The translations under genes were made by a program, and so were the position numbers. Source: Ruminococcus sp. (GTDB taxonomy: Bacteria; Bacillota; Clostridia; Oscillospirales; Acutalibacteraceae). From it: a stretch of DNA of 40,976 nucleotides. Where the stretch lies: positions 1 through 40,976 of the forward strand of contig JAFUOM010000010.1 of the NCBI GenBank assembly GCA_017481885.1. The letters are read 5' to 3'. The notes under the pieces were generated by a model that saw only the letters and a list, made by a program, of their open reading frames with translations, had not been told where the DNA came from and ran no database searches. The stretch's first letter is position 1; every line of letters begins with the position of its first letter. Positions 6,016-32,478 of this stretch are shown piece after piece.

Positions 6016-6035
6016 GTATATTGGTCTGCGACAGC

Positions 6036-6170
6036 GATATCACGCCTCGTTGCTCTTCGCTGTTCCTCAAAAGTCTACAGTCTCGCATTGATTTTCTTCA
6101 TCGACTTTGCCGATTACGAAAATGTAGACTCGACTTTGACTTTGTGAGGGCTACGAGCCTCGGCGCTTAA
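6036..6170 (-). repeat. A-family nested-hairpin element, copy A1
   Basis: 135 bp. Read on the minus strand it starts TTAAGCGCCGAGG and ends AACGAGGCGTGATATC. An outer stem pairs CCTCACAAAGTC with GACTTTTGAGG; the apical stem is ATCGGC/GTCGAT (6100-6114). A further GCTGTCGCAGACCAATA follows (6019-6035), which is also found after copy A8. Confidence 0.85.
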
Positions 6171-6305
6171 GATATCACGCCTCGTTGCTCGTCGCTGTTC
6201 CTCAAAAGTCTACAGTCTCGCATTGATTTTCTTCATCAACTTTGCCGATTACGAAAATGCAGACTCGACTTTGACGTTGTGAGGGCTACGAGCCTCGGCG
6301 CTTAA
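6171..6305 (-). repeat. A-family nested-hairpin element, copy A2
   Basis: Exactly 135 bp and directly abutting A1, with a few substitutions. The apical stem is ATCGGC/GTTGAT (6235-6249), which keeps pairing through G-T wobble. Confidence 0.85.
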
Positions 6306-6458
6306 GATATCACGCCTCGTTTGTCTTCGCATCTCTTTCAAATCTCTTCTGTTCCTTGCTCTCATGCTAAAATCAAAGAATATATTTACTCTTTGATTTT
6401 TTAACGCGAGAGCTCGGTCACATTAAGATTTGAAAGGCTCGGACACTCGGACGCTTAA
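6306..6458 (-). repeat. A-family element, divergent copy A3, fused to the valS stop codon
   Basis: Same termini as A1 and A2 (TTAAGCG..., ...ACGAGGCGTGATATC) but a different interior of similar length. It still folds: CTTTCAAATCT pairs with AGATTTGAAAG and AATCAAAGA with TCTTTGATT. The first TAA of the element is the valS stop codon. Confidence 0.75.
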
Positions 6459-9079
6459 TCCAGCGCCTCAATTGCGGCTTTGATGAGAGCGATTTTTTCT
6501 CTTTCACGCTGAGCCTGTCCTTTGATTTTCTCAATAACAGCCTCTGGTGCTTTTGCCATAAAGCCTGCGTTGTTTAGTTTGCCTTCGTCCTGAGCGAGCA
6601 TCTTCTCAACGGTCGCTAACTCTTTGTTAAGACGCTTGAGCTCTTCTTCCTTATCAACGAGGTCGCTCATTGGGATGTAAATCTTTGCGTCGTTAGTAAC
6701 AACAGTTACAGCCTTTTCGAGAGTGAACTCGTCGCCGATTTCGATTTCAGTAGCAGAAGCTAACTTCTTGATGAACTGGATACCGTGTGTGAAAGTGTCC
6801 TTCTTATTGGTTGCGATGAAGTAGTTTGCTTTCTTTGATGGTGGAACGTTCATTTCGTTACGGCGTGTACGGATAGCTGTGATTGCTTCCATAATAACTT
6901 CCATCTGCTTAGCTTCATCGGTAAAGTTGAGAGAATCAGTATACTCTGGGTATCTTTCGAGCATAATTGTCTCGCCATCGTGTGGGAGAGTCTGCCAGAT
7001 TTCCTCAGTGATGAATGGCATAAATGGATGTAAGAGTTTTAAAATCTTGTCGAGAACGTAGAGGAGTACCTGTCGAGCGTTTTGAGCTGAAACAGCATCA
7101 TCACCATTAAGACGGGATTTTGCAAGCTCGATGTACCAGTCGCAGTAGCAATCCCAGATGAAGTCGTAAAGCTTCTGTACAGCGATACCAAGCTCAAACT
7201 TGTCGAGATTGTCTGTGATTTCTTTTGCCAAAGTGTTGAGTGTTGAAAGAATCCACTTGTCTTCAAGCTCAAGTGTTTCAGGGAGTGTAAGAGGTACATC
7301 GTGGTCGTCGATGTTCATATGAACAAAACGTGATGCGTTGTAAAGCTTGTTAGCAAAGTTACGGCAAGACTCAACTCGTTCTTCTGAGAATCTCATATCG
7401 TTACCAGGTGAGTTACATGTAGCAAGGAAGAATCTTAAAGCGTCAGCGCCGTATTTGTCGATAACTTCGATTGGGTCAACACCGTTGTTTAAGGACTTAC
7501 TCATCTTTCTGCCCTGTGAGTCACGGATGATACCGTGGATAAATACAGTGTTGAATGGAACCTCACCCATATGGTGCAAGCCTGAGAAAATCATTCTTGC
7601 TACCCAGAAGAAGATAATATCGTAGCCTGTAACAAGAGTGTTGGTTGGGTAGAAGTATTTTAAGTCCTCAGCGTCGTTTGGCCAACCTAAAGTTGAGAAT
7701 GGCCACAGAGCTGAACTAAACCATGTGTCGAGTGTGTCTTCGTCCTGATGTAAATGTGTGCAACCGCACTTTGGACAAACTGATGGAGCTTCTTTTGCAA
7801 CAACTGTTTCGCCACACTCATCACAGTAGTAAGCAGGGATTCTGTGACCCCACCACAGCTGACGTGAAATACACCAGTCTTTGATGTTTTCCATCCAGTG
7901 GAAGTAGATTTTGTCGAAACGCTCAGGAACAAACTTAACTCTGCCGTCACGTACACACTCAATAGCAGGCTCAGCGAGTGGCTTCATCTTAACAAACCAC
8001 TGCTTTGAAACTCTAGGCTCTACTGTTGTGTGGCAACGGTAGCAAGTACCAACGTTGTGTGAGTAGTCTTCAATCTTAACGAGGAAACCGCCTTCTTCTA
8101 AGTCTTTAACGATAGCTTTTCTAGCTTGGTAGCGGTCCATACCTGCGTATGCAGGGTAATCCTCAGTGATTTTCGCATCGTCTGTCATACAGTTGAGGAC
8201 TGGGAGATTGTGACGTAAACCAACCTCAAAGTCATTAGGGTCGTGAGCAGGAGTAATCTTAACAACGCCTGTACCGAAATCCATCTCAACGTAATCGTCG
8301 GCAACGATTGGAATTTCTCTGCCAACCAGTGGGAGAGTAAGTGTCTTGCCGATTAAGTCTTTGTAACGCTCATCGTTAGGGTTAACAGCAACAGCGGTAT
8401 CGCCGAGTAAGGTTTCAGGGCGTGTTGTTGCAAGCTCAAGATATCCTGTGCCGTCTGTGAGTGGGTAGCGAAGGTGCCAGAAATGACCTGCCTGCTCTTC
8501 AAACTCAACCTCTGCGTCAGAGATAGATGTCTTACAATGTGGGCACCAGTTGATGATTCTCTCGCCCTGATAAATTAAGCCCTGCTCGTATAATCTAACG
8601 AAAACTTCTTTAACAGCTTCTGAGCATCCCTCGTCCATTGTGAAACGCTCACGTTCCCAGTCGCAGGATGTGCCGAGCTTTCTAAACTGCTTTGTAATTC
8701 TTGAGCCGTACTCTTCTTTCCAGTCCCAAACACGCTCCAAAAACTTCTCTCTGCCCAAAGTCTCCTTTGACAGACCTTCCTTTTTGATAGCCTCAACAAC
8801 CTTAGCCTCAGTAGCGATAGATGCATGGTCAGTACCAGGAAGCCACAGTGCACAGTAACCCTGCATACGTCTGAAACGGATGAGGATGTCCTGCAAAGTG
8901 TTGTCGAGTGCGTGGCCGATATGCAACTGACCTGTGATGTTTGGCGGTGGCATAACGATTGTGTAAGGTTTCTTGTCCTTGTCGATTTCTGCGTGGAAGT
9001 AGTTGTTTTCCATCCAGAAGTCATATATCCTGTCTTCAACCTGTTTTGGGTCGTAAGACTTAGCTAATTCTTTAGCCAT
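6455..9079 (-). CDS. valS: Valyl-tRNA synthetase
   Basis: 874 residues, the usual bacterial length. It charges tRNA-Val with valine in the cytoplasm. The class I signatures are present: HIGH at residues 53-56 (in [15 protein letters not shown]) and KMSKS at about 525. The editing domain lies between them, with Cys pairs near WCPHC and YYCDECGE...CPKCG. An anticodon-binding region follows, then the Val-specific C-terminal coiled coil ([21 protein letters not shown]). The start is set by GGGAGGAATTGAA before ATG. A promoter lies 50-75 bp upstream with no room for a T-box leader. The 3' end runs into a triple array of A elements. Confidence 0.97.
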
Positions 9080-9124
9080 TTCAATTCCTCCCTATTATTC
9101 CTATTATAGGTTATATACTTAGTT

Positions 9125-9153
9125 ATTATCGCATTTTTGCGTGCGTTTGTCAA
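9125..9153 (-). promoter_or_regulatory. Promoter for valS
   Basis: On the minus strand TTGACA, 17-bp spacer, GATAAT, about 45 bp before the valS ATG. Confidence 0.7.
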
Positions 9154-9182
9154 TGATACTGAAAGCTATTGTAAAAAAATAT

Positions 9183-9204
9183 AAGCCCTCAATTACGAGG
9201 GCTT
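9183..9204 (-). terminator. Terminator downstream of the DUF4340 gene region
   Basis: AAGCCCTC pairs with GAGGGCTT around a 6-base loop; on the minus strand it is followed by ATATTTTTTTA. It lies about 345 bp past the DUF4340 stop, with A-family sequence and a coding remnant between. Confidence 0.75.
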
Positions 9205-9212
9205 AAAAGATA

Positions 9213-9341
9213 TCATTGATTTTGTGCTGTAACCGATGTGTCAATTACGCCAAGGCGGTCAACAAAGGTGTTTGCTTCAACGTATTTTAACGTTGTGTCA
9301 AGGTGATACTGGGCAATCCCAAGATAAAACCAAGAAGTATA
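9213..9341 (-). pseudogene. Possible remnant of a protein C-terminus
   Basis: A 42-codon open stretch on the minus strand with no start codon reads as protein-like sequence (WFYLGIAQYHLDTTLKYVEA, then NTFVDRLGVIDTSVTAQNQ and stop). It has normal codon use and ends just before an intrinsic terminator. It may be the tail of a gene truncated when A-family repeats accumulated here. I do not recognise the family, and chance is possible. Confidence 0.3.
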
Positions 9342-9369
9342 TTATTTCCTTGATTTATTAACAACAGTT

Positions 9370-9413
9370 TTCGGTCACATTGAGATTTGAAAGGCTCGAG
9401 TGCTCGGTGCTTA
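9370..9413 (-). repeat. Truncated A3-type element
   Basis: Matches the first third of copy A3 (TTAAGC, CCGAG, CCTTTCAAATCT, ATGTGACCGA) and abuts copy A4. Confidence 0.65.
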
Positions 9414-9546
9414 ATATCACGCCTCGTTGTGCTACGCAGTCCCTCAAAAGTCCACACACTCTCTCGCCCTGTCTTGTTTATATTCATAAACCGCAACAGG
9501 TCGGGTTCGTGTTCGACTTATCGAGGGCTTCGCACCTCGGCGCTTA
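9414..9546 (-). repeat. A-family nested-hairpin element, copy A4
   Basis: Read on the minus strand it starts TAAGCGCCGAGG, two bases after the DUF4340 stop codon, and ends AACGAGGCGTGATA. The outer arm GACTTTTGAGG is kept. The interior differs from A1/A7 but folds: CCTGT pairs with ACAGG and GTTTAT with ATAAAC around a 4-base loop (9476-9491). Confidence 0.8.
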
Positions 9547-9548
9547 GA

Positions 9549-11231
9549 TTAGAAACTACCTACAGTTTTGCCCATAATGAGGTCTTGTACACACTGTGAG
9601 AACTTTGTGCAGTAGCTCTTGTACACAAGGCTCTGGGTGTTGCCGTTGAGCTCGGCGATGTACTTTGTGTTGCCTGTCGGGTAGATGTTAATTGTGTCTG
9701 TTGCTCTGCCTGTTGAGTAGGAAAGTCTGATTGTAAGCACCGGTGTGCCTGAACCATTTTCAGTAGCTTTGCCTGCGTTTTGCATTGCACAGATGTTCTG
9801 GTAGAACACGTAGAAGTTGTCAGAGTCAAGCTTTTTGCCGTTGTAAGTAGCGGTTGTTGAGTTAACCTGCTCCTGTGTGCCGTCGGTTGTGTCTACGCTT
9901 TCGGTTGTGGTTGTTACATCAATAACGTAGGTTCCGCTTTCGTCTGTTACTTCAATCTGTGACAAAGAGTCAAAGTTAGGGTCGATAACCATATCAGGAA
10001 CAAGCTTGTCAACGTTTGTGTAAATCCACATAACTGACTGTGTGCCGATTGTGTAAATGATGTTTGAGTCAGCGATGATGTAAACCATATCGTCCTTTGG
10101 CTTTGAAACCCTGAGATTCACGGTTGTGTCAGGGTAAACAGCTGAAAGCTGAGCGTATGGAGTAGCAAGGCCGTACTGTGAAAGCTGAGCAGAGCTCGGG
10201 TTAACACAGACTACCTCTTTGCCTGAAAGACCGCGGATACCGCCTGTGATGTTTGCAGCTTCTGTTTCGCTTATAAACATCTTCTTTGGAGCAATCATTT
10301 TGTAGGTTGTGTCGATTGCCACATCTTCGTTTGGTCTAAGCTCAATTGTTGTGCCGTAAGCTTCGCCCTTTAAAGTGAGTGACTCAAATTCAGCGTTGTC
10401 AGTTGTTGTAGCTGCGTCGTTGATTGCGATTGTCACAAGGTCGAGTACAGAGAACAGCAAGCCGTCTACTGCGTCGTTTGGAACAATGTACACAACGTCG
10501 CTGTTACCAAACTGAATGTATGTGCCCATCTGTGATGGAGCTTCGTTGCCGACAATTACGGTTGATGTTGTTTTGTCGGTGAAGGTTGTCTTTACAGTTG
10601 CTCTTGGGTTGTCAAAACCGAAGTCTGCTGACTTGTCGCCTACAGGGTCAGCAACTGAGTCAAAGTTAATTCTTGCTACATCGTTTGCGATTGTGTCAGG
10701 ACCACCTGCCTGGAGCTCGATGTCCTCAAAGCCAACAAGTGTGTAAATTGTTGCGTCGGTTTCTTCTTTCCCTGTTTCTTCGTTAACGGTAACAGGAGTT
10801 TCAGCGAGAACCGTAAAAGTACCTGAGGTGTTTTCGACATCGATTTTTGCAATGTCAGACGGTGTGTACTCGATAAGTGTGCCGTAGCTGTTGTTGTCGA
10901 GCTTGCCCTTATCGTTTAAAACAACGTTTGCCTGATGCTCACCCTTTTCGTCAACTGTCAATGTGATTGGTGTGCCAGGGTCGATTTCGCTTTTTTCGTC
11001 TTTTTGTGGGAGTGTAACAAGTAAAACGATGATTGCCGCAATAAGCACAATTGCTACACCTGCAATGATGAACCATTTTGCGTTTTTAGAGAGCTTTTTG
11101 CCCTTTTTGCTGTCGTCTTTCTTGTTTAATTCAACAGAGGTTTCACGCTCTAAAAAAGAGTTTAACGCATCGTTTTGAGTGTCAGTGTTTTCTACTGCGT
11201 CTTTGTTTAAGTTGTCTTTGTTTTCAGCCAT
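9549..11231 (-). CDS. DUF4340 domain protein of a Gld-like ABC export system
   Basis: 560 residues from the ATG at 11231; a GTG 24 bp upstream is in frame but lies behind the RBS (GGAGG). The N-terminus is cytoplasmic, Lys/Asp-rich and disordered. One membrane helix follows (WFIIAGVAIVLIAAIIVLLV), then a large extracytoplasmic region with repeated beta-rich DUF4340-type units (for example YTLVGFEDIELQAGGPDTIA and ANITGGIRGLSGKEVVCVNP). Its start codon overlaps the stop of the preceding gene (TAATG), so the two are translationally coupled. Proteins of this type accompany GldG/GldF-like ABC genes; what they bind is unknown. An A-family element begins two bases after the stop. Confidence 0.8.
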   Translation of the reverse strand: MAENKDNLNKDAVENTDTQNDALNSFLERETSVELNKKDDSKKGKKLSKNAKWFIIAGVAIVLIAAIIVLLVTLPQKDEKSEIDPGTPITLTVDEKGEHQANVVLNDKGKLDNNSYGTLIEYTPSDIAKIDVENTSGTFTVLAETPVTVNEETGKEETDATIYTLVGFEDIELQAGGPDTIANDVARINFDSVADPVGDKSADFGFDNPRATVKTTFTDKTTSTVIVGNEAPSQMGTYIQFGNSDVVYIVPNDAVDGLLFSVLDLVTIAINDAATTTDNAEFESLTLKGEAYGTTIELRPNEDVAIDTTYKMIAPKKMFISETEAANITGGIRGLSGKEVVCVNPSSAQLSQYGLATPYAQLSAVYPDTTVNLRVSKPKDDMVYIIADSNIIYTIGTQSVMWIYTNVDKLVPDMVIDPNFDSLSQIEVTDESGTYVIDVTTTTESVDTTDGTQEQVNSTTATYNGKKLDSDNFYVFYQNICAMQNAGKATENGSGTPVLTIRLSYSTGRATDTINIYPTGNTKYIAELNGNTQSLVYKSYCTKFSQCVQDLIMGKTVGSF

Positions 11232-12787
11232 TATCTGTGCCTCCTGCGTAACCACTTAACAATACCTACAGTAACCACTGCAAGTGGTACAAGGTATCTG
11301 AAAATAATTGCGAGAATTGTTGATGTGAATGTTGATGTGATGCCAAGCTCAGCAGAGTCGAGTGTCTTGCCCTCAACAGTGATTGATGCGTCCTCACGGT
11401 CTGCGATTGTGTTGAACAGGTTGAGGATGTATGCTGAGTTGTTGAAGCTTGTTGTGCTCAGTGCACTCTGGGAGAAGGCTGCGTATGAGCCGAATACAAC
11501 AACGTTTGAGCTCTTTGTTTCGTCTTCGTTACCTGCTGTTGAAATAGCGGCACCAACGAGTTTTTGTGGCTCTTCTTCGTTGTAATCCCAGTTTTCGTCT
11601 GCATCAAGTGGCATCTTGACAGCTGCGTCTGATGAAGAAAGAAGTGATGATGCCTGAGTTGTGTCTAAGCTTACAGGCATACAGTACATTAAAACTACAG
11701 GGATTGACGTGTCTTTCAAACCAGAAGAGAACTCTGTTTCATCATAGTTGAAGATTGAAATAAGATTAGGATAGAGTGAGTTTGTCATATACTGGGTGTT
11801 TGTTTCGTAAATCCAGCTCTTGTCAATGCTCATACCCCATTCCTCTAAAAGGGTGTCGATGTTTGGCATTGGGTCTAAAACAGTGTCGTTTGGAACGTAA
11901 AGCAGGGTGCGACCGTAGTTGCCATCGTTGTAAAGCCAGTTTGAAAGTGTGTTGTAGCCGTCTTTGTCGAGGTCGTTTGTTGGAGCAAAGAGCACAACAA
12001 ACTGTGAGTCTTTGGAAATCTCGCCGTTTAAGAGGCTAACCTTTTCAACTTTGTAGGCATTGTTTGAAAGAAGTGTTGAGAAAGCGTCAACTTCAAGACC
12101 GCCAAGACCGTCGATAAATGTAACAGTAACCTTTTCCTCGGTTGTAACGTTTAAGATTGCTGTGAGCAACGCCTGCTCAAGCTTCTGGCCGTTAACGTAA
12201 TATTCGCCGTAAGTTGACAGATACTCCTGGTCATAGGTGAAAACATCATCAAAGGAAACTGCAATGTACTCGTCACCGTGAGCAACAAGCATCAGATACG
12301 CTGAGTTCTGCCAGTTTACGTCAGGATATTCAGCAGTGAAAGTAGGATTTGTAGCAAGGTTAATGTAATCAACATTAATGTGCTTTGACTGCTGTTCAAA
12401 AGCATTTAAAAGTTTGTTTACCTGAATGTAGTATTCGCCCTGAGCTTCCAGGGATTTTTCTTCCATTAGTACGTAAACATCTACGTCTTTTTCAAGCTTG
12501 TCTACAAAGTCAATTGATGGCTGTGTAAGCTCGTAAACATTGTTTGAAGTGAGGTCTGTGCTGAGTACCGGGAAACGGTTTGTCAGCATAGTTGCGATTA
12601 TGTTGAGTCCCACAACAACAGCTACAAACACAACTGTCAGCATTACTGCCACAGAGCCACGCTTTGCATTTCTGGACTTTAAGAAAGCGACGATTTTCGA
12701 AGGCTTTTTAGACTTCTTTTCAGCTTTAGCTTCAGGCTTGTTTTTGCTCTCAACAGGAGCAAAGTTTTCTAAATCTTTGTTATTCAT
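11231..12787 (-). CDS. GldG-like ABC transport auxiliary protein
   Basis: 518 residues. A basic N-terminal cytoplasmic segment is followed by a membrane helix (SVAVMLTVVFVAVVVGLNII), then a large extracytoplasmic GldG/ABC_transp_aux-type region starting TNRFPVLSTDLTSNNVYELT (the start typical of this family). A second helix near the C-terminus (STILAIIFRYLVPLAVVTVG) precedes a basic tail RRRHR. It is the third gene of the operon, 14 bp behind the permease gene, with GGAGGTG before its ATG. It probably forms the extracellular part of the exporter. The substrate is unknown. Confidence 0.82.
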   Translation of the reverse strand: MNNKDLENFAPVESKNKPEAKAEKKSKKPSKIVAFLKSRNAKRGSVAVMLTVVFVAVVVGLNIIATMLTNRFPVLSTDLTSNNVYELTQPSIDFVDKLEKDVDVYVLMEEKSLEAQGEYYIQVNKLLNAFEQQSKHINVDYINLATNPTFTAEYPDVNWQNSAYLMLVAHGDEYIAVSFDDVFTYDQEYLSTYGEYYVNGQKLEQALLTAILNVTTEEKVTVTFIDGLGGLEVDAFSTLLSNNAYKVEKVSLLNGEISKDSQFVVLFAPTNDLDKDGYNTLSNWLYNDGNYGRTLLYVPNDTVLDPMPNIDTLLEEWGMSIDKSWIYETNTQYMTNSLYPNLISIFNYDETEFSSGLKDTSIPVVLMYCMPVSLDTTQASSLLSSSDAAVKMPLDADENWDYNEEEPQKLVGAAISTAGNEDETKSSNVVVFGSYAAFSQSALSTTSFNNSAYILNLFNTIADREDASITVEGKTLDSAELGITSTFTSTILAIIFRYLVPLAVVTVGIVKWLRRRHR

Positions 12788-12801
12788 ACTCGCACACCTC
12801 C

Positions 12802-13506
12802 TTAGCTCCAGCGTTTTTTCTCAAACACTCTGATTGTCAGGAAAATGAAAATAGCAATAACGCTGAGGAAGAAAACAACGTTAGAGAGGTTGAGAATACC
12901 GTATGTGAAATTGTTGAAATTATGGTTGAATGACACAGTGCTCAGTATATTGATTAAAAACTGTGACTGTGTGATGCTTGCAAGTGAGTCAATCATATAA
13001 ACGAAAAGACCAACAGCAATACTGATAACAGCAGCGATTACCTGACTTTCGGTAAGAGCTGAAATGAAAATGTCAATGGCAATAAGTGCACCGCCAAGCA
13101 GTAACATACCAAGCAATGTGCACAAAATTACAGCCCAGTCAGGAGTTGTGAAGAAGCAAATAACAAGTGTGTACACAAGGAAAATTGCAACACAGCAAGA
13201 ATAAAGCACAAATGCACCCAAAAACTTGCCCATTACTACCTCGAACAGACTCACAGGAGCGGTGAGCAACGCCTGGTCGGTTTTCTGTCGCTTTTCCTCA
13301 GAGAACGATTTCATCGTAATAATTGGAATGAGGAAAAGGATAATCATAAACATACTTGCAAATACAGGTGTAAGCGAAGCCTGACCATAGTGCAGGCAGT
13401 AAAGGTAGAAGTACATACCTGAGAAGAAGTAGAAAACAGCGAGCACGATGTAACCGATAGCGCTGTTGAAATATGCGGAAAGTTCACGCTTTAAAATAGC
13501 CAGCAT
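12802..13506 (-). CDS. ABC-2 type permease (GldF-like)
   Basis: 234 residues with about six hydrophobic segments, beginning MLAILKRELSAYFNSAIGYI, a typical start of GldF/NosY-type ABC-2 permeases. A conserved cytoplasmic stretch after the second helix reads ITMKSFSEEKRQKTDQALLT. The start codon overlaps the ATPase stop codon (TAATG), which shows coupling. It forms the membrane channel for the neighbouring ATPase. Confidence 0.88.
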   Translation of the reverse strand: MLAILKRELSAYFNSAIGYIVLAVFYFFSGMYFYLYCLHYGQASLTPVFASMFMIILFLIPIITMKSFSEEKRQKTDQALLTAPVSLFEVVMGKFLGAFVLYSCCVAIFLVYTLVICFFTTPDWAVILCTLLGMLLLGGALIAIDIFISALTESQVIAAVISIAVGLFVYMIDSLASITQSQFLINILSTVSFNHNFNNFTYGILNLSNVVFFLSVIAIFIFLTIRVFEKKRWS

Positions 13507-14447: not shown

Positions 14448-14640
14448 ATTTGTTTCTCCTTTTTAAAGTTTTACGCACAAAAATGTGCACATATCTACAT
14501 GCTAATAATACTACAAATCCGTGCAAGAATAAAGCATTTTACACGATTGTAAACAAATTTTCAGATGCTTGTCACATAACCGATGGTCAAAATGACAAAG
14601 GTGTAGCTCAAATTTTAATGATAACCTTGATGATAAATTT

Positions 14641-15412: not shown

Positions 15413-15435
15413 AATACTTCGGTGCTCGGCGCTTA
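15413..15435 (-). repeat. Truncated A-family start, fused to the rnfB stop codon
   Basis: Read on the minus strand TAAGCGCCGAGCACCGAAG matches the first bases of copies A7 and A8. Its TAA is the rnfB stop codon. The rest of the element is missing and an intrinsic terminator follows. Confidence 0.7.
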
Positions 15436-16227
15436 AATTGTAATGCACTTGCTAGGGCAGTTCTCAACGCAAACACCACAGCCTGTGCATTTTTCAGGGT
15501 CGATGGTTGCACAGAAGTTGTTTACTGTGATAGCACCTGCTTCACAGACTTTCATACACTTCATACAGCCGATGCACGCAGCCTTGCAGGCTTTCTTTGC
15601 TTGGGCTCCCTTGTCGTGGTTACTGCAACGCACCACTGCCTGTTCTTTGACAGGAGCTACAGTAATAAGCTTTCTAGGACAAGCTTGCTCACACAATCCG
15701 CAACCGCCACATTTGTCAATATCAACAACAGCAACGCCGTTGCACACTGTGATAGCATTGCTCAGACAAGCACTCACACAGTCGCCAAAACCAAGACAGC
15801 CGTAAGAACAAGCGGAAATATCGCCGTAGCGTGAGGCAGACAAACAGCTCTTAACACCTTGGAAATCTGCTTTATATGATGTGTTGTCGCAGTTGCCCAT
15901 ACAGTGAACATGAGCGACTTTTTTGACAGCTTCACCAGCTGAAACGCCTAAAAGCTCTTCAACAGCGTGGGTGCAATCTTCACCGCCAACAGGACAAGCA
16001 CCCGGTTTTGCCTGACCTTTTGATAAAGCAGATGCGTAGCCTGCACAGCCTGAATATCCACAGGCACCGCAGTTTGCACCAGGCAGAAGTTCAAGCACCG
16101 CCTCAGCTTTTTCGTCCTTTGGCACAGCCATAACAATTGATGCAATCGCAAGGATAAGACCAATCAGCAAGCCAATGCCTGCTACAACCAAAACTGCAAT
16201 AAGTACAGCAAATAATGTTTGATTCAT
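15433..16227 (-). CDS. rnfB: Rnf complex subunit B (electron-transfer iron-sulfur protein)
   Basis: 264 residues from the ATG at 16227, chosen because GGAGGT lies just before it. One N-terminal membrane helix is followed by the Fe-S domain with Cys53, 56, 61 and 78 (CGACGYSGC). Then come several 4Fe-4S ferredoxin motifs (CSYGCLGFGDC, CGGCGLCEQACP, CIGCMKCMKVC, CTGCGVCVENCP). It is the subunit that receives electrons from ferredoxin and passes them into the membrane complex. It is the last gene of rnfCDGEAB, the order usual in Clostridia. Confidence 0.95.
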   Translation of the reverse strand: MNQTLFAVLIAVLVVAGIGLLIGLILAIASIVMAVPKDEKAEAVLELLPGANCGACGYSGCAGYASALSKGQAKPGACPVGGEDCTHAVEELLGVSAGEAVKKVAHVHCMGNCDNTSYKADFQGVKSCLSASRYGDISACSYGCLGFGDCVSACLSNAITVCNGVAVVDIDKCGGCGLCEQACPRKLITVAPVKEQAVVRCSNHDKGAQAKKACKAACIGCMKCMKVCEAGAITVNNFCATIDPEKCTGCGVCVENCPSKCITI

Positions 16228-16240
16228 TTCATTTACCTCC

Positions 16241-16864
16241 TTATGCAAGCGGGATAAGCTTATCAACAAAGCCTGAGAAGCCTAAGAAGCTGAGTGCTAC
16301 TAAAGATGCCGAAATCAGCGTAATAGGGAGTCCCTGTAAGCTCTTAGGAATGTCAGCAGACTCAAGACGTGAACGTACGCCCGCAAACATTACCATAGCA
16401 ACCAAAAAGCCGATGCCTGCACCAAGAGCGTTAATAAGAGCGTGACCGTAAGTGTAGGTGTAAAGAGCAGTTGTCTCAACCTTCTGGAGCACGAGCATTG
16501 TAACGCCTAAGATAGCACAGTTTGTTGTGATAAGCGGAAGATAAACACCAAGTGACTGGTAAAGGGATGGAATGTACTTTTTGAGCACGATTTCAACCAG
16601 CTGTACAAGACCTGCGATGATTAAAATGAACACAATTGTCTGCAGGTATGAAAGGTCGTTTGGTACTAATAAATACTGATAGATAGGGAAGGTAACGGCT
16701 GTTGCGAGCACCATAACAAAGGTTACGGCAACGCTCATACCAACCGCTGTGTTAAGCTTTTTGGAAACGCCTAAGAACGGACAGATACCAAGGAATTTGC
16801 ACAGCACGTAGTTTTCAGTGAGGATAGCCGCCAAAAATACGGAAACAAGCGATTTAATTAACAT
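16241..16864 (-). CDS. rnfA: Rnf complex subunit A (membrane protein)
   Basis: 207 residues with six hydrophobic segments. The N-terminal ENYVLCKFLGICPFLGVS and the mid-protein TTNCAILGVTM contain the conserved Cys residues that ligate the intramembrane Fe-S centre shared with RnfE. Its 5' end overlaps rnfE by 11 bp. It is part of the Na+/H+-pumping ferredoxin:NAD+ oxidoreductase. Confidence 0.95.
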   Translation of the reverse strand: MLIKSLVSVFLAAILTENYVLCKFLGICPFLGVSKKLNTAVGMSVAVTFVMVLATAVTFPIYQYLLVPNDLSYLQTIVFILIIAGLVQLVEIVLKKYIPSLYQSLGVYLPLITTNCAILGVTMLVLQKVETTALYTYTYGHALINALGAGIGFLVAMVMFAGVRSRLESADIPKSLQGLPITLISASLVALSFLGFSGFVDKLIPLA

Positions 16865-21326: not shown

Positions 21327-21383
21327 TTTGATTTATAGTTTTGTTGGTGCTACGCACGGCGGACGACCAATGGTTGCCCCTAC
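21327..21383 (-). repeat. REP-type palindrome with tail
   Basis: Read on the minus strand GTAGGGGCAACC pairs with GGTCGTCCG; the tail GTGCGTAGCACCAACAAAAC follows. Confidence 0.75.
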
Positions 21384-21389
21384 GATTGA

Positions 21390-21419
21390 GCTGTGGTGCT
21401 CGGACGCTCGGACGCTTAA
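21390..21419 (-). repeat. Truncated A-family start near rpsT
   Basis: Read on the minus strand TTTTAAGCGTCCGAG with a duplicated CGTCCGAG, resembling the start of copy A3. It lies just behind the rpsT terminator rather than in front of it. Confidence 0.5.
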
Positions 21420-24218: not shown

Positions 24219-24227
24219 GAGATAAAT

Positions 24228-24782: not shown

Positions 24783-24806
24783 TATATAAATATTATTTAG
24801 GTTTAA

Positions 24807-26687
<1,881 letters not shown>

Positions 26688-26713
26688 TTAAAATATAAAA
26701 TATATACACAAGC

Positions 26714-26737
26714 GGTGACTCGATTTTTCGAGCCACC
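26714..26737 (+). promoter_or_regulatory. Hairpin between dnaK and dnaJ
   Basis: GGTGACTCG pairs with CGAGCCACC around a short T-rich loop. A second, weaker hairpin (GGTGACT/AGTCACC) follows to about 26779. No T-run follows, so a processing or stabilising element is more likely than a terminator. Confidence 0.5.
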
Positions 26738-26827
26738 GTGTTGTGCGTAATGGTGACTACCACTTGACTTGAGTCACCTTATCGTGTTTAATAACATATA
26801 GTTTGTTAATAAAGCAGGTGAACCCTC

Positions 26828-27973
26828 TTGGCAGATAAGAGAGATTATTATGAGGTCTTAGGCGTACAAAAAGGTGCGTCAGACGATGAAATAAAAAAAG
26901 CATACAGACAGAGTGCGAAGAAATACCACCCTGACTTGCATCCGGGCGATGCTGAGTGTGAAGCTAAGTTTAAAGAAGTAAACGAAGCGTACGAGGTGCT
27001 GTCCGATAAGGACAAAAAAGCCAGATACGACCAGTTTGGACACGCAGGTGTTGACCCTAACTACGGTGCAGGTGCAGGCTCATACGGCTCACCGTTTGGT
27101 CAGGACATCGACTTTGGCGATATCTTCAGCTCAGTGTTCGGCGGTTTCGGCGGATTTTCAGGCAGACGTAGTGCTAACCCTAACGCACCACGACGCGGTA
27201 CTGACGTTGAAGCAACTGTGTACATTTCTTTTGAAGAAGCGGCTATGGGTTGCAAAAAAACTGTTGAGTATCAGGCAGTGTCAACTTGTACTGAGTGTAA
27301 TGGTACAGGTGCTAAAAAGGGTACTACTGTCAAAACTTGTCCTACTTGCTCAGGCAGAGGTCAGGTAACAGTTAACCAGCGTACTCCGTTTGGCGTTGTG
27401 CAGACAACCCGTCCGTGCGACACTTGTAAGGGACAGGGAAAGATTGTTGAACAGCCGTGTCCAAAATGTAACGGTCAGGGCAGAGTAAGACGCAAAAAGT
27501 CAGTTGAAATCAACATCCCTGCAGGTATTTCGGACGAGCAGGTATTAAACGTAAGCGGTCACGGAAACAGTGGCTCAAACGGTGGTCCTGCCGGCGACTT
27601 GCACGTTTACGTTGGTGTTCGTCCTCACGCAGTGTTTGAACGCAGAGGTGACGACGTGTGGTGCGAGCTTCCTATCACATTCGCTCAGGCGGCTCTTGGT
27701 GCAGAGGTGGTTGTGCCAACTCTCTACGGCAAAGTAAGCTACCAGATTCACGAAGGCACCCAGCCAAACGATGTGTTTAAGTTAAAGGGCAAGGGCATCC
27801 AGCATTTAGGTTCAAAATCTAAGGGCGACCAGTACGTTAAGGTCGTTATCGAAGTACCAAAGAACCTGTCATCAAAGCAGAAAGAACTCATCAGAGAGTT
27901 TGACTCTGCAAGCTCCGACAAAAACTACGCAAAGCGTAAAACTTTCAAGCAGAAATTAAAAGATTTGTTTTAA
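26828..27973 (+). CDS. dnaJ: Chaperone DnaJ
   Basis: 381 residues. J-domain with HPD at residues 34-36 ([10 protein letters not shown]), Gly/Phe-rich linker, four zinc-binding repeats ([32 protein letters not shown]), then the substrate-binding C-terminal domains. The start codon is [15 protein letters not shown] is the family N-terminus, and AGGTG lies seven bases before it. It stimulates DnaK ATPase. The stop TAA is also the first TAA of an A-family element. Confidence 0.96.
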
Positions 27974-28105
27974 GCGCCGAGGTCCGAAGCCCTCAAAAGT
28001 CAAAGACGAGTCTGCATTTTCGTAGTTGACGAATGTCAACGTAGGAAATCAATGCGAGACTGTGGACTTTTGAGGAGAAGCGGAGGACAACGAGGCGTGA
28101 TATTC
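27972..28105 (+). repeat. A-family nested-hairpin element, copy A7, fused to the dnaJ stop
   Basis: Starts with the dnaJ stop codon (TAAGCGCCGAGG) and ends AACGAGGCGTGATATT. It folds as one long hairpin: CCTCAAAAGTC with GACTTTTGAGG, GTCTGCATT with AATGCGAGAC, and apical GTTGAC-GAAT-GTCAAC (28025-28040). The dnaJ terminator follows at once. Confidence 0.88.
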
Positions 28106-28116
28106 TAGAAAATAGA

Positions 28117-28155
28117 TAACAGCGACGAGAACACAGAATCTCGCCGCTGTTTTTT
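28117..28155 (+). terminator. Terminator of the hrcA-dnaJ operon
   Basis: AACAGCGACGAGA pairs with TCTCGCCGCTGTT and is followed by TTTT. Confidence 0.85.
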
Positions 28156-28159
28156 CGTT

Positions 28160-28648
28160 TTAATATAATTCGTCAAGCTCCCATTTTATAGGATTGTTGT
28201 CGATGTATGTGTAGTGTTCAATATAATCACGCTCATTACGGATGATGTGCTCGATGAATAATTTTTGCCATATGCTATAACCAATTTGCTTTGACACATA
28301 TCCCTTCATCTGTTGTATAACCCGCGATATCGTAGGGGCGACCACTGGTCGTCCGTCTATGTTACCTTCAATACTAAGCAATAGGTGTATGTGGTTTGGC
28401 ATAACAACATAATTATCGATATTAACATCGGGATAGTGTATTGGTATCTGGCGTATTGCATCATCAACAATCTTGCCATATACAGACAGATTTGCACTTT
28501 GCGGACGAGCAATGCTCGCCCCTACATTATTCCACAACAACGGTTTCTTGTCTTTTGTACACACCGTCACAAAATACACGCCTGCGTTACTATAATCATA
28601 ACCATTCAATCGTGTTGGTTTGCGTTTTGGGAGCTTTTTGTTTTCCAT
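28160..28648 (-). CDS. REP-associated tyrosine transposase (Y1/IS200-like family)
   Basis: 162 residues. The HUH-nuclease core motif is VMPNHIHLLL with His86 and His88, and the C-terminal part IWQKLFIEHIIRNERDYIEH, then YIDNNPIKW, is typical of this family. These single-copy enzymes act on short palindromic REPs in the host chromosome. Remarkably, two REP copies lie inside its own coding sequence in frame: VGASIARPQ (residues 42-50) and DGRPVVAPT (98-106). Both sit in loops, just before conserved blocks (LSVYGKIVDD and ISRVIQQMKGY). The gene follows the XRE gene by 6 bp and may be read from the same promoter. The catalytic Tyr cannot be assigned safely by eye. Confidence 0.9.
   Translation of the reverse strand: MENKKLPKRKPTRLNGYDYSNAGVYFVTVCTKDKKPLLWNNVGASIARPQSANLSVYGKIVDDAIRQIPIHYPDVNIDNYVVMPNHIHLLLSIEGNIDGRPVVAPTISRVIQQMKGYVSKQIGYSIWQKLFIEHIIRNERDYIEHYTYIDNNPIKWELDELY
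28332..28355 (+). repeat. REP copy inside the transposase gene (first on the map)
   Basis: GTAGGGGCGACC pairs with GGTCGTCCG. It is read through in frame on the minus strand as DGRPVVAPT. Orientation is opposite to the copy at 28502. Confidence 0.85.
28502..28525 (-). repeat. REP copy inside the transposase gene (second on the map)
   Basis: On the minus strand GTAGGGGCGAGC pairs with GCTCGTCCG. It is read in frame as VGASIARPQ and matches the intergenic copy at 22668. Confidence 0.85.
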
Positions 28649-28654
28649 AAGCTT

Positions 28655-28867
28655 TTACTCTTCTTCGCTGTACTCTAGAATATCGCCTGCATCACACTGC
28701 AGAGCCTCGCAAATAGCCGCCAAGGTCTGGAAACGGATAGCTGTTACTTTGTTATTCTTGATTTTAGAGAGGTTGACGTTTGAGATGCCGACTTTTTCGG
28801 CAAGCTCGTTTAAAGACATTTTTCGCTCAACCATCATTCTGTCCAGTCTTAGTATAATTTTTCCCAT
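28655..28867 (-). CDS. Small XRE-family transcriptional regulator
   Basis: 70 residues, nearly only a Cro/CI-type helix-turn-helix: RMMVERKMSLNELAEKVGIS then NVNLSKIKNNKVTAIRFQTL and LAAICEALQCDAGDILEY, the last stretch typical of the small single-domain regulators that travel with DUF2975 genes. It begins 12 bp after the DUF2975 gene and so is co-transcribed. Targets are not known; autoregulation of the unit is a fair guess. Confidence 0.88.
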   Translation of the reverse strand: MGKIILRLDRMMVERKMSLNELAEKVGISNVNLSKIKNNKVTAIRFQTLAAICEALQCDAGDILEYSEEE

Positions 28868-28879
28868 ATTTTCCTCCGA

Positions 28880-29449
28880 TTAAAGCAGTCCGTCAACTTC
28901 TTCTTCGAGCTGTGCACCGTAAGAGAAAATCTGTGTCAGGCACAGGCACACAAGACCTACGACAACACCTTCCAGCGAAACAGAAACACCAACAGGAGTG
29001 CCGTTAATGAGGGAAACCACATAGACGATTGTTGTTAACACAAAGCTGAAAACAGGTATTGCGATTGAAAGAATACCGATGTTCTTAACACGTTTTACAA
29101 CGTCTTTCTGGAATGGAGATGTGCTTTCTGCCTTTTCGTATCTGCCCGAGATTGTGTGCAGAATGATGTCGAGATTGCGGAAAATCAGTGCTATTAAAGC
29201 AAATGCGATAACGGTGCCTAAAAAATACATCGACAGCGCAAAGTAGTTGATAACCCCTGTATTGGTGATTACTCCCAGCTCAAAGCCAATACTTTGCATC
29301 ATGTGGGGTTCTCCTGCAACGATTTCTTGTGCCACATCTTTGTTGAACGAGCCCGCAAATACGATTAAACCTGCCACAACGCCAATCCAAGCTCCAATTT
29401 CAGCGATTTTAGAAATCACCGACAATGTTCTGTTAAGTCCTTTTTTCAT
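28880..29449 (-). CDS. DUF2975 membrane protein
   Basis: 189 residues with four hydrophobic segments (IGAWIGVVAGLIVFAG; YFALSMYFLGTVIAFALIAL; IGILSIAIPVFSFVLTTIVY; VVVGLVCLCLTQIFSYG) and the family-like RNLDIILHTISGRYEKAEST loop. DUF2975 proteins are almost always followed by a small XRE regulator, as here, so the pair is probably a sensor or regulated membrane protein with its regulator. The mechanism is unknown. The last residues EEEVDGLL are the usual C-terminus. Confidence 0.8.
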   Translation of the reverse strand: MKKGLNRTLSVISKIAEIGAWIGVVAGLIVFAGSFNKDVAQEIVAGEPHMMQSIGFELGVITNTGVINYFALSMYFLGTVIAFALIALIFRNLDIILHTISGRYEKAESTSPFQKDVVKRVKNIGILSIAIPVFSFVLTTIVYVVSLINGTPVGVSVSLEGVVVGLVCLCLTQIFSYGAQLEEEVDGLL

Positions 29450-29541
29450 TTTAAAATACCTCCAAGTACCGACCGATTAAACGGTCACTCATTTAACTTC
29501 CAAATTTTCTAAAAATTTTCTCAAACGCGTTTGTTGAGGCT

Positions 29542-29570
29542 AATATAACACAGCTTTTTACGTTTGTCAA
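29542..29570 (-). promoter_or_regulatory. Strong promoter for the DUF2975-XRE unit
   Basis: On the minus strand TTGACA, 17-bp spacer, TATATT, with about 90 bp of leader before the DUF2975 ATG. It shares GTGTTATATTAGCCT with the promoter at 5887-5915. Confidence 0.75.
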
Positions 29571-29670
29571 TAGATTTTTAACGTAAAACATTAAAAAATA
29601 TTCGAAAAAGATTAAAACAATATCGTAAAACGTAAACCAACCCTATAAAATGGGAGCTTGACGATTTATA

Positions 29671-29699
29671 TTGAAATATCCGCTGAAATGGTTTATTAT
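29671..29699 (+). promoter_or_regulatory. Promoter for prmA
   Basis: TTGAAA, 17-bp spacer, TATTAT, 35 bp before the prmA ATG. Confidence 0.65.
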
Positions 29700-29734
29700 A
29701 TGTGATGTATGTAAAACAAAGAAAGGGTGCTACT

Positions 29735-30655
29735 ATGGAGTGGACACAAATTACGATTAATGTAAGCCCTAAAGACGTTGATTTAGCGGGCGACATTGCG
29801 AATATGACCGTGCCGTACGGCATATATATTGAAGATTACACTGACCTTGAAATCGGCGTGCAGGAGATTGCTCACGTAGATTTGATTGATGAGGACTTGC
29901 TCAAAAAGGACAGAAATGTTGCTAAAATTCATATCTACATCGACCCTGAGGATTCACCTGCTGACGCAATTGCGTTTTTGACTGAGCGTTATCTTTCAGA
30001 GGGTATTGAGCACAGCATCGAAGAAGAAAAGTGCGAAGAAGACGACTGGCTCAACAACTGGAGAAAGTATTTCAAGCCGACTAAGGTTGGAAAAAAGCTC
30101 CTGATTTGCCCATCCTGGTATGAGGTGGAAGACACAGAGGGCAGAGTTGTGCTTGATATTGACCCAGGGCTAGCATTTGGTACAGGTAAGCACGAAACAA
30201 CACGCCTTTGCCTTTCGACCTTGGAGCAGTATGTAAAGGAAGGCTCAACTGTGCTTGACGTCGGTTGCGGTTCGGGAATACTCGGCATCGCTTCAATTTT
30301 ATTTGGAGCAGAAAGTGCGTTTGGTGTTGATATTGACCAGATGGCAGTTCGCACAGCGGTTGAAAACGCTAAAGTTAACAACGTCAGCGACAAATTCGAG
30401 GTAGTCTGCGGTGACCTGACCGAAAAGGTAGAGGGAAAATACGACATTATTGTTGCAAATATCGTTGCAGATGCTATAATATTCTTGTCAAAAGGCGTTC
30501 GTGAATTTATGAACGACGACACAGTTTACATTATGAGCGGTATCATCGACACTCGTGTTGACGATGTGCTAAACGCTCTTAAAGATGATTTTACTGTCAT
30601 CGACAAGATTTTTGATAACGGTTGGTACTGTTTAGTTGCAAAGAAGAAGAGCTGA
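29735..30655 (+). CDS. prmA: Ribosomal protein L11 methyltransferase
   Basis: 306 residues. The ATG at 29735 is chosen over a GTG 33 bp upstream because AAAGGG lies seven bases before it and MEWTQITI is the family start. The N-terminal L11-recognition domain is followed by the SAM-binding motif VLDVGCGSGILGIAS (about residue 173) and the NIVADAI motif that replaces the NPPY of related enzymes. It trimethylates L11 in the cytoplasm. Standalone gene. Confidence 0.93.
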   Translation: MEWTQITINVSPKDVDLAGDIANMTVPYGIYIEDYTDLEIGVQEIAHVDLIDEDLLKKDRNVAKIHIYIDPEDSPADAIAFLTERYLSEGIEHSIEEEKCEEDDWLNNWRKYFKPTKVGKKLLICPSWYEVEDTEGRVVLDIDPGLAFGTGKHETTRLCLSTLEQYVKEGSTVLDVGCGSGILGIASILFGAESAFGVDIDQMAVRTAVENAKVNNVSDKFEVVCGDLTEKVEGKYDIIVANIVADAIIFLSKGVREFMNDDTVYIMSGIIDTRVDDVLNALKDDFTVIDKIFDNGWYCLVAKKKS

Positions 30656-30667
30656 CACCGGTTTAAC

Positions 30668-30690
30668 AGACGACCAATGGTCGCCCCTAC
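30668..30690 (-). repeat. REP-type palindrome behind prmA
   Basis: On the minus strand GTAGGGGCGACC pairs with GGTCGTCT. It starts about 13 bases after the prmA stop. Confidence 0.75.
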
Positions 30691-30721
30691 AAAATGCAAC
30701 AGAAACGTTGATACTCAATTT

Positions 30722-30772
30722 GTAGGGGAGGGTTTCTACGCCCTCCCGTCGTGCGAAGCACCAACAAAATTT
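30722..30772 (+). repeat. REP-type palindrome with tail
   Basis: GTAGGGGAGGG pairs with CCCTCCCG; the tail GTGCGAAGCACCAACAAAAT follows. Confidence 0.75.
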
Positions 30773-30844
30773 GTGTTTCATCATAAAACCGTCACATTGT
30801 GCGATTATCATTTATCTTAACTTACATTATCGGAGGAATTTACA

Positions 30845-31414
30845 ATGAAAAAATCAAGCAGAGAGAAACTTAATTTATTCTTCTCATCATTTTTAGTTAT
30901 CGGTTACATTGTTTGCACATACTTCTTTATGTCGCTCACAACAAGAGTAAGCCAGAGCGTTGCTAACCTCATTCAGGTTGCTGTGTTTACACTCTTCGGT
31001 CTTATTGTTTTCTACGCAACAAGAGTTGGCGAAGGCGTTCCTATAAAGCGTTTTTCAGCTATCGTTTTATGTGTGCTTGATATCCCTGCACTTTTCGCAA
31101 TTATCGCAACTTTAGCTCCTGCATTCCCACTCCACGAAGCTTTAGCTGCTCAGCCAATCGTTATGACATTTGCTTGTGTTGCACTCGGTTACGGTATCCC
31201 ATACACATTCCTTTCAGGCTTTGAGCTTAAAGAGGAAATCGACGAGGATGCCTTAAACGCTGCTATGGTTGAGGGCGGTTTAGCTCAGGAACTCGCAGCT
31301 TTAGAAGAAACTGAAAACGCACAGGAAGTTACAGAAGAAGAGCTCTCAGACGAGGTTGCTACAGCTGACGACGTAAAAGAGCTCGAGGCTGTTGACGGTG
31401 CAGACGCTGAATAA
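30845..31414 (+). CDS. Membrane protein with acidic C-terminal tail, unknown function
   Basis: 189 residues. Four hydrophobic segments occupy residues 10-130 (LFFSSFLVIGYIVCTYFFM; LIQVAVFTLFGLIVFYA; FSAIVLCVLDIPALFAIIA; PIVMTFACVALGYGIPYTFL). The last about 60 residues are strongly acidic (ALEETENAQEVTEEELSDEV and on), probably cytoplasmic and disordered. GGAGGAATTTAC precedes the ATG. I do not recognise the family. Codon use is like that of the highly expressed genes nearby. Confidence 0.7.
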   Translation: MKKSSREKLNLFFSSFLVIGYIVCTYFFMSLTTRVSQSVANLIQVAVFTLFGLIVFYATRVGEGVPIKRFSAIVLCVLDIPALFAIIATLAPAFPLHEALAAQPIVMTFACVALGYGIPYTFLSGFELKEEIDEDALNAAMVEGGLAQELAALEETENAQEVTEEELSDEVATADDVKELEAVDGADAE

Positions 31415-31450
31415 TAGCATAGCATTTAAAAAATAATATTATATAACAAA

Positions 31451-31472
31451 AGGGCGGACAGATGTTCGCCCT
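31451..31472 (+). terminator. Possible weak terminator between the membrane protein gene and the Mrp gene
   Basis: AGGGCGGA pairs with TTCGCCCT. Only GAATTTTG follows, so termination may be partial and the Mrp gene may be read through. Confidence 0.4.
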
Positions 31473-31495
31473 GAATTTTGAAAGAGGGTATAATA

Positions 31496-32329
31496 ATGGG
31501 TTGTTCACATGATTGTTCAAATTGCAGCGAAAACTGCTCAGAGCGTACAGCTCCACAGGATTTAATCGAAAAGTTGAACTCTATGAGTTCAGTAAAAAAG
31601 GTCATCGGTATCGTGTCAGGTAAGGGTGGCGTAGGCAAAAGCCTTGTTACTTCTGCTTTAGCTGTTGAGCTTAACCGCCGTGGCTATAAGACAGCTGTGC
31701 TCGATGCTGATATCACCGGTCCGTCAATTCCAAAGGCTTTCGGCATCAAGGAAAAAGCTCTTGGCAACGAGTTCGGTATTTTACCACGTACAACAAAAAC
31801 AGGTATCGACATTATGTCAGTTAACCTGCTTTTACAGAACGAAACAGACCCTGTTGTATGGCGTGGCCCTGTAATTGCGGGCACAGTAAAGCAGTTCTGG
31901 ACAGACGTTATCTGGAAAGACGTTGACTATATGTTTGTTGATATGCCACCTGGAACAGGCGATGTTCCGCTGACCGTTTTCCAGTCACTTCCGCTTGACG
32001 GAATTGTTGTTGTAACATCTCCACAGGAGCTTGTTTCAATGATTGTAAGTAAGGCTATAAAGATGGCTGATATGATGAACATTCCGGTGCTCGGCGTAGT
32101 TGAGAATATGAGCTATTTCGAGTGCAAGGAGTGCAAAACTCAGCATAAGATTTTTGGCGAAAGCCACATTGACGACATTGCAAAAGAATTCGGCACACGA
32201 GTGCTTGCAAAGGTTCCAATGGACGATTCTCTTGCAAAGTGCGTTGATACAGGTTCAATCGAGCTGTTTGTGGGCAACTATTTTGAAGAAGCTACAAACA
32301 TCATCGAGGATGAACTGTCTGTAAAATAA
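31496..32329 (+). CDS. Mrp/NBP35-type P-loop ATPase (iron-sulfur carrier)
   Basis: 277 residues from the ATG at 31496 (GAGGG seven bases before). The N-terminal Cys cluster MGCSHDCSNCSENC is like that of NBP35-type proteins and of Clostridia Mrp homologues. Deviant Walker A GKGGVGKS follows at about residue 43, then DADITGPSIPKAFG. The C-terminal CKECK near residue 206 is the Fe-S-bridging CxxC-type motif at the dimer interface. It likely binds and hands on iron-sulfur clusters in the cytoplasm. The stop TAA is also the first TAA of an A-family element. Confidence 0.9.
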   Translation: MGCSHDCSNCSENCSERTAPQDLIEKLNSMSSVKKVIGIVSGKGGVGKSLVTSALAVELNRRGYKTAVLDADITGPSIPKAFGIKEKALGNEFGILPRTTKTGIDIMSVNLLLQNETDPVVWRGPVIAGTVKQFWTDVIWKDVDYMFVDMPPGTGDVPLTVFQSLPLDGIVVVTSPQELVSMIVSKAIKMADMMNIPVLGVVENMSYFECKECKTQHKIFGESHIDDIAKEFGTRVLAKVPMDDSLAKCVDTGSIELFVGNYFEEATNIIEDELSVK

Positions 32330-32478
32330 GTGCCGAGCACCGTAGCCCTCAAAAGTCAAAGTCGAGTCTGTATTTTCGCAGTTGACGAAGTCAACGTAGA
32401 AAATCAATGCGAGAATGTGGAGCTTTTGAGGATTAGCGGAGGTGAACGAGGCATGATATTGCTGTCGCAGACCAATAA
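32327..32478 (+). repeat. A-family nested-hairpin element, copy A8, fused to the Mrp gene stop
   Basis: Starts with the stop codon (TAAGTGCCGAG), outer stem CCTCAAAAG/CTTTTGAGG, apical GTTGAC-GAA-GTCAAC (32381-32395), 3' end ACGAGGCATGATATT, then GCTGTCGCAGACCAATA as also seen at A1. The terminator follows. Confidence 0.85.

Follow-up and report, generated by a model that had tools for sequence, protein, structure and literature searches.

What are the hairpin-forming repeats behind several genes of a 40,976-nucleotide stretch of a Ruminococcus genome, and how did they come to stand there? An initial annotation of this stretch (contig JAFUOM010000010.1 of assembly GCA_017481885.1, positions 1 to 40,976, hereafter the window) described six substantially complete and three truncated copies of an intergenic element with shared ends. 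It considered either a structured RNA of 3′ untranslated regions (UTRs) or an element resembling a miniature inverted-repeat transposable element (MITE), moved by an enzyme encoded elsewhere. The copies belong to a real family of mobile, folded repeats that seems, on the genomes sampled, to be confined to one genus; its mechanism and its enzyme we can only infer. Our preferred reading, with a rough probability of 0.45, is that of a non-autonomous family of mobile palindromes similar to repetitive extragenic palindromes (REPs), inserted as a folded single strand by a putative HUH/Y1-type enzyme.

The complete copies lie within about two bases of where they had been placed, and the three truncated ones were found as well, all on the reverse strand and all without the 3′ part (Table 1). 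The 3′ end, ACGAGGCGTGATAT, is exact in five window copies and carries one change in the sixth (32446-32459). With up to three mismatches it occurs at seven window sites, the six copies and an unrelated one at 3276, against 2.09 expected, and none of 100 shuffles reaches seven. The 5′ motif by itself is weaker, with 10 window sites against 4.82 expected and 10 reached by 4 of 100 shuffles. The proposed TTAAGCG-type 5′ terminus has to be corrected in that its first three element bases, TAA, are often the stop codon of the upstream gene. A covariance model built from 49 copies finds exactly the six complete copies in the window (E 1.9e-36 to 1.4e-15); five of them were in its training set, and the copy at 6307-6457, outside it, has E 1.4e-15. 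In the host genome, a draft of 1.94 Mb and 88% completeness, 20 copies of the 3′ end were found at up to one mismatch and none in the reversed control.

Across genomes, a first extraction gave 92 copies with both ends recognisable. The final set used comprises 105 copies and leaves out 25 matches to the 3′ end, not de-duplicated, that have no recognised 5′ end. Orthologous sites of different species were counted separately, so that copies do not equal independent insertions. The length first given as about 135-150 bp resolves into two classes, 129-139 bp (73 of 105 copies) and 146-152 bp (30), with two copies of 111 and 113 bp, in a set that admitted only lengths of 108-114, 126-141 and 144-154 bp.

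With respect to genes, 52 of the 105 copies begin within 0-8 nt of the stop codon of a gene read in the same direction, and in 29 of these the stop codon coincides with the first bases of the element; none begins at 9-43 nt. The others follow a T-run (15), a tRNA end (3, recognised with one tRNA sequence only) or another copy (11), or are unclassed (24), in part because the upstream gene falls below the cut of 100 codons. In the classes counted, the orientation to the upstream gene is always the same. Behind 437 ends of open reading frames (ORFs) in carrier loci, 151 pyrimidine-TAA sites lie at 9-43 nt and 157 at 0-8 nt. Under equal use of these sites, the chance that 49 copies all lie at 0-8 nt would be 4.6e-15, a figure that ignores selection, presumes a pyrimidine-TAA target, counts related copies as independent and takes its 49 copies from an earlier extraction of 106 rows. 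TAA is preceded by T or C in 24 of the 29 zero-distance copies, compared with 214 of the 437 ORF ends. A short gap between stop codon and terminator does not by itself explain the precision, since in several of 13 element-free loci of fba (a gene named from its translation) the terminator hairpin starts, as judged by eye, about 25 nt or more behind the stop.

The fold is conserved along with the ends: the gene-sense strand forms a single long stem whose internal loops are rich in purines. On this strand, A-type copies read TAA-GCG(N)CC-GAG-P2-GNA-GC ... GC-GNA-P2′-AACGA-GGCGT-GATAT, and B-type copies have the same ends around a different interior. The stem P1 (GCGCC/GGCGT) is nearly invariant and holds one constant G-T pair. 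P2, of four pairs, occurs in nine recurrent complementary versions among 104 copies; in 91 of these all four positions pair, and in 88 the complementarity is exact, a count that 2000 shuffles put at 20.2 on average and at 33 at most. In an alignment of 49 A-length rows, chosen from 27 A-type and 52 other copies, a structure written from one window copy pairs in 85.1% of cells, compared with 72.5% in shuffled and 36.9-44.5% in slid controls. Covariation amounts to 0.338 against 0.137. Two of five measures, pairs with two-sided changes (29 of 500 shuffles as high) and pair types (172 of 500), do not rise clearly over the shuffled values in this set, and the differing interiors leave one inner helix weak, at 66.1%. 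For 22 rows chosen from 25 B-type copies, with their own consensus structure, 94.6% of cells are paired against 85.4% shuffled and 36.2-47.2% slid, covariation is 0.280 against 0.113, and no measure is reached by any shuffle. In both sets, kinship among the copies inflates the shuffle control. The stems quoted in the initial annotation are present in the window copies, and its argument from two-sided, pairing-preserving changes is borne out by both alignments and by the P2 counts. Lack of significant covariation and identity with an Rfam family, which it had named as grounds for giving up the family, were both examined and neither refuted it: in the whole window no Rfam model matches at gathering score, and the best permissive match for one copy is Twister-P5 with 14.7 bits against a gathering score of 37.6 (E 0.87). 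The lack of an Rfam match agrees with the initial annotation, which knew of no named family with these ends.

The two strands of the element are not alike. Among 91 distinct copies, folded with DNA energies and with G-T pairs disallowed, the sense strand shows 222 single mismatches, of which 192 set purine against purine, 18 are G-T and 5 A-C; of the 109 on the other strand, 74 set pyrimidine against pyrimidine. Three-by-three loops are GNA/GNA in 23 of 33 cases, a motif that is stable in both RNA and DNA. The purine-purine excess identifies the gene-sense strand as the folded one, and it is this strand, as RNA or as single-stranded DNA, that is the form that matters. The bias also bears on the idea that the covariation is unselected, the arms being kept alike by palindrome correction through template switching in replication. 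Such a process would fit a P2 whose changes come as a block and whose arms are almost always perfect complements, but it should show no strand preference and would leave unexplained that ends and loops are conserved across copies with unlike interiors; we regard it as very improbable. New with respect to the initial annotation are the strand asymmetry, the stacking of copies at one nucleotide described below and the position of copies at stop codons, at terminators and at the ends of tRNAs.

A folded sense strand directly behind stop codons would also be expected of a functional RNA, a hairpin in the 3′ UTR of the upstream gene that protects the mRNA or acts at termination and is kept by selection. 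The covariation and the purine mismatches of the sense strand agree with this, as do the very stable RNA folds: the element strand of the six window copies has RNA folding z-scores of -4.1 to -9.2 (-5.7 for the opposite strand of one copy). For the same sequences, RNA foldings deviate further from shuffles (z -4.1 to -6.1, five copies) than DNA foldings do (-2.8 to -5.0, six foldings of five copies), which keeps the RNA alternative alive. There is a precedent in the bcr repeats of Bacillus cereus, some of which are co-transcribed with genes, with longer mRNA half-lives for bcr3, according to excerpts of PMC3446304. On the other hand, 15 of the 105 copies follow T-runs and so are presumably outside the transcript, and 11 follow another copy; the exact 3′ end is missing from 128 of the 161 genomes of the genus, and one and the same gene often has a remnant or an unoccupied site behind it. 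The near absence of G-U pairs from P2 is likewise unusual for an RNA stem that drifts slowly. A selected RNA of this kind is, on balance, rather unlikely, though it is the strongest of the alternatives.

Mobility is indicated by orthologous sites with and without the element. At the putative rpoA locus, named from its translated end and an rplQ-like neighbour, a copy is present in L053 and L095 and there is none in L085. At fba, complete copies stand in L086 and L093, a 22-nt 5′ remnant in the host genome, a short 3′ remnant in G016 and a REP of the GTAG type in G025, and neither repeat in 13 other parsed loci; among the 30 fba loci, parsing did not cover 13, and L219 yielded no usable end. 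No target duplication is evident by eye at single junctions and at one clearly empty, diverged orthologous site. The MITE-like behaviour proposed at the outset is supported, copies being dispersed, tandem and present or absent at orthologous sites. A conventional MITE is disfavoured. A deletion derivative of a DDE transposon, moved via terminal inverted repeats, would account for the imperfect inverted ends, the size and the dispersal. Against it stand the single orientation to genes, the lack of an evident target duplication and ends that are no simple inverted repeat and contain a conserved G-T pair; no parent transposon was seen, with no search by family made. We consider this explanation improbable.

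Many copies are stacked. Another copy's 5′ end lies 0-5 nt behind 50 of the 105 copies, and 41 of these followers have no 3′ end within 185 nt; in the first set, 40 of 92 copies have a follower, seven of them complete. These counts allow up to two substitutions, were made without a chance control and include one doubtful case (L078), and among 33 followers called truncated at least two (L031, L059) are similar over about 150 nt and merely lack a recognisable end. Followers are often of another subtype than the copy in front, which gives them the look of earlier insertions that were overtaken at one nucleotide position, in an order that we infer. The two ends of a copy are also coupled: TAA occurs with GAT in 63 copies and GAA with GAC in 16, the crossed combinations in 4 and 0, and TGT and TAT occur with GAT in 12 and 6. 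By analogy with hairpin-reading enzymes, this coupling might hint at a cleavage of the other end guided by the hairpin foot.

Within the sampled genomes, the family seems restricted to a single genus. Of 161 genomes of this genus, 33 carry the exact 3′ end, the control giving a single hit over the whole set, and none of 23 genomes from other families of the order has it. In a one-genome-per-species collection, whose scans may omit records very near the window's own genome, the end-to-end pattern was found in 62 stretches, titled Ruminococcus, Oscillospiraceae, Clostridia, Clostridiales, Eubacteriales or plain 'bacterium' and many with a ruminant gut source; in viral contigs it has no exact match. 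The covariance model, applied under tighter filters and with no more than 13 candidates scored per listed genome, detected the family among 245 genomes of the order in the host genome only and in none of the other 244. An open-access literature search found no paper describing this repeat.

Known systems resemble the element in part. REPs lie close behind the 3′ ends of ORFs (excerpts of PMC3733652), and like them the element is a dispersed palindrome near ORF 3′ ends, often several together, with a folded single strand and an unpaired motif 5′ of the hairpin (PMC3733652, PMC2817692 and PMC8266576, all in excerpt). In contrast to the GTAG and CGTC superfamilies of REPs, its ends carry no GTAG or CGTC tag: by the first three and the last bases, 103 of 105 copies have TAA, GAA, TGT or TAT before GCG and end in GATAT or GACAT, and GTAG occurs only internally, in one version of the internal loop. 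It further differs in its length of 133-151 bp (129-152 bp in 103 of 105 copies) against 20-40 bp for REPs in the excerpted PMC3733652, in its single orientation to the upstream gene, and in that, among the six loci fetched for one clade of RAYT (REP-associated tyrosine transposase) genes, only the one in the window has a copy beside it. The repeats bcr1-bcr18 of the Bacillus cereus group are likewise intergenic, with a 150-bp class, some of them MITE-like and some with conserved secondary structure and transcribed in UTRs (PMC3446304, PMC2267715, in excerpt); they belong to another host group, and the excerpts make no mention of placement at stop codons. Miniature elements derived from IS200/IS605 share with ours a one-strand hairpin and, on the reading preferred here, guide-chosen cleavage sites (excerpts of PMC8266576), but have two subterminal hairpins in place of one long one, and the IS200 copies in these genomes have other ends. 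Integron attC sites, too, have a variable sequence and a conserved one-strand fold close to stop codons, with the end boxes RYYYAAC and GTTRRRY. These boxes were not seen by eye at the ends of 71 aligned copies, and unlike integron attC sites the window copies are not surrounded by a cassette array. As to target sites, insertion of IS200/IS605-derived miniature elements is not known to leave a duplication.

A family of REP-like palindromes inserted as a folded single strand is favoured by the placement, the filled and empty orthologous sites, the stacking, the mismatch bias of the sense strand and the coupled ends, and also by the position of REPs behind ORF 3′ ends, by the GTAG-REP that in one genome stands behind the same fba stop codon as element copies in other genomes, and by a RAYT among the high-copy genomes. 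In IS200/IS605 elements, and probably in REPs with TnpA-REP, guide sequences beside the hairpin choose the cleavage site (PMC8266576, in excerpt). In a similar manner, an HUH/Y1-type enzyme would cut the hairpin-bearing strand at its feet, reading the hairpin foot, the 5′ motif (TAA, TGT, TAT or GAA) and the 3′ GATAT or GACAT, and the cut strand would be joined beside a like motif without target duplication. If pyrimidine-TAA is preferred, a stop codon would offer a place to land without harm, left intact and open to reuse, and its repeated use would push older copies downstream, where they would decay.

As for the enzyme, the RAYT-like ORF 28160-28648 matches NF047646 with 70.2 bits (E 1.6e-19, cut-off 80) and Pfam Y1_Tnp with 20.7 bits (cut-off 23). 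A RAYT match at E ≤1e-20 is present in 56 of 161 genomes of the genus. Proteins with at least 70% identity over most of the window RAYT occur in six (G000, G011, G025, G064, G079, G133), all among the nine genomes with at least five exact 3′ ends. In the five other loci of this RAYT only the gene can be aligned to the window locus (about 440-450 bp; in L284 also a 36-nt piece); the loci lie at unrelated places, and all six genes contain two GTAG-REPs in opposite orientation inside the coding region. The window RAYT is taken to be the mover of the GTAG-REPs, and it may possibly move the hairpin element too; as the mover of the element it was set aside, the association being partial only. A canonical IS200 transposase was also rejected: Y1_Tnp matches occur in 18 of 34 genomes, including G009 and G010 without the exact 3′ end, and the carrier G014 has none. 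The canonical Y1 gene loci of the carriers G000, G011, G012 and G016 contain no element ends, and the IS200 copies in L139 and L141 have ends that differ from those of the element. Reverse transcriptase matches were found in five of seven carriers, two characterised ones being of unlike kinds; as carriers only were examined, this is no test of association.

Several observations weigh against insertion by such an enzyme. The ends lack the GTAG tag and the length is far above that of REPs, the RNA foldings, further below shuffles than the DNA foldings, favour RNA if anything, and the absence of target duplication was judged by eye, from individual junctions and a single empty site that has diverged. 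The ends could also be coupled through common descent, and T with T is no base pair. Three of the nine high-copy genomes (G014, G078, G145) have no RAYT of the window type, the repeats proper to this RAYT seem to be the GTAG-REPs within its gene, and of the six loci of its clade only that of the window has the element nearby (one copy), with none within the stretches fetched for the five others. Kinship could account for the RAYT association, and canonical IS200 transposases do not track the element.

Table 1. Element copies and associated features of the window
Position	Strand	Feature
6023..6036	-	Mini-hairpin tail CGCTGTCGCAGACC behind the 6037 copy
6037..6169	-	Complete element, A type; last of three-copy array behind ORF 6455-9079
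6172..6304	-	Complete element, A type; middle of three-copy array
6307..6457	-	Complete element, B type; own TAA (6455-6457) is stop codon of ORF 6455-9079
9325..9413 (end approximate)	-	Follower: 3′-truncated B-type copy directly behind the 9414 copy
9414..9546	-	Complete element, A type; 5 nt behind stop of ORF 9549-11255
15417..15435	-	19-nt 5′ remnant; own TAA is stop codon of ORF 15433-16269
21384..21418	-	5′ remnant after terminator-like T-run; cut off by GTAG-REP (21360-21383), then mini-hairpin tail (21346-21359)
27971..28103	+	Complete element, A type; own TAA (27971-27973) is stop codon of dnaJ-like ORF 26828-27973
28160..28648	-	RAYT-like ORF, neighbour of the 27971 copy; uncertain candidate mover, outside the element
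28332..28355	+	GTAG-REP inside RAYT-like gene
28502..28525	-	GTAG-REP inside RAYT-like gene
32327..32459	+	Complete element, A type; own TAA (32327-32329) is stop codon of ParA/NUBPL-like ORF 31478-32329
32461..32473	+	Mini-hairpin tail GCTGTCGCAGACC behind the 32327 copy

By eye, 11 of 92 element copies are followed by a mini-hairpin similar to the tail found on 4 of 26 GTAG-REPs, a likeness that may point to a common route; as a search pattern the mini-hairpin was of little help, most loci inspected being coding or other chance matches. Two 5′ remnants, in the window (21346-21418, reverse strand) and in L007 (about 546-592), each break off precisely at a GTAG-REP, as though it had taken the place of the missing part. 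The idea of a larger parent element that encloses a gene was considered and rejected: three host 5′ ends without a 3′ end (window 15425 and 21407, G000:C66:23545) are short remnants, two of them cut by GTAG-REPs, others such as those in C3 and C22 not having been read closely. Behind the 3′ end of the element, a further repeat starting CGTCCTCAC stands in L041, L025, L102 and L065, and a GGGGTCCCCGAAATC palindrome recurs in L051, L059, L065 and L102. A segment resembling the RAYT gene's 3′ end (about 28168-28200) recurs inverted at 29646-29679, about 1.4 kb away and before a prmA-like ORF, as seen by eye and by the 36-nt match to L284. Elsewhere in the window, repeat units of about 500 bp occur in and around the 966-aa ORF 196-3096 (window 1-3096), and a 300-bp unit is present in three copies near the window end (40090-40953).

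REPs and similar palindromes cluster just behind stop codons, for which the published passages available in excerpt offer no mechanism. A bolder reading, speculative at present, is that of a new mobile class aimed at the ends of translation units: the folded sense strand, as DNA or RNA, would land a few nucleotides from stop codons, tRNA ends and terminators, arrays would be successive insertions reusing the same nucleotide, and the exchangeable four-base stem with its nine versions might be a compatibility code between element and enzyme. With placement near to the nucleotide, filled and empty sites, coupled ends and stacking, the cause of stop-codon targeting becomes testable in this family. 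If the exchangeable stem and the coupled ends are indeed recognition signals, they would represent a new specificity of hairpin-reading enzymes.

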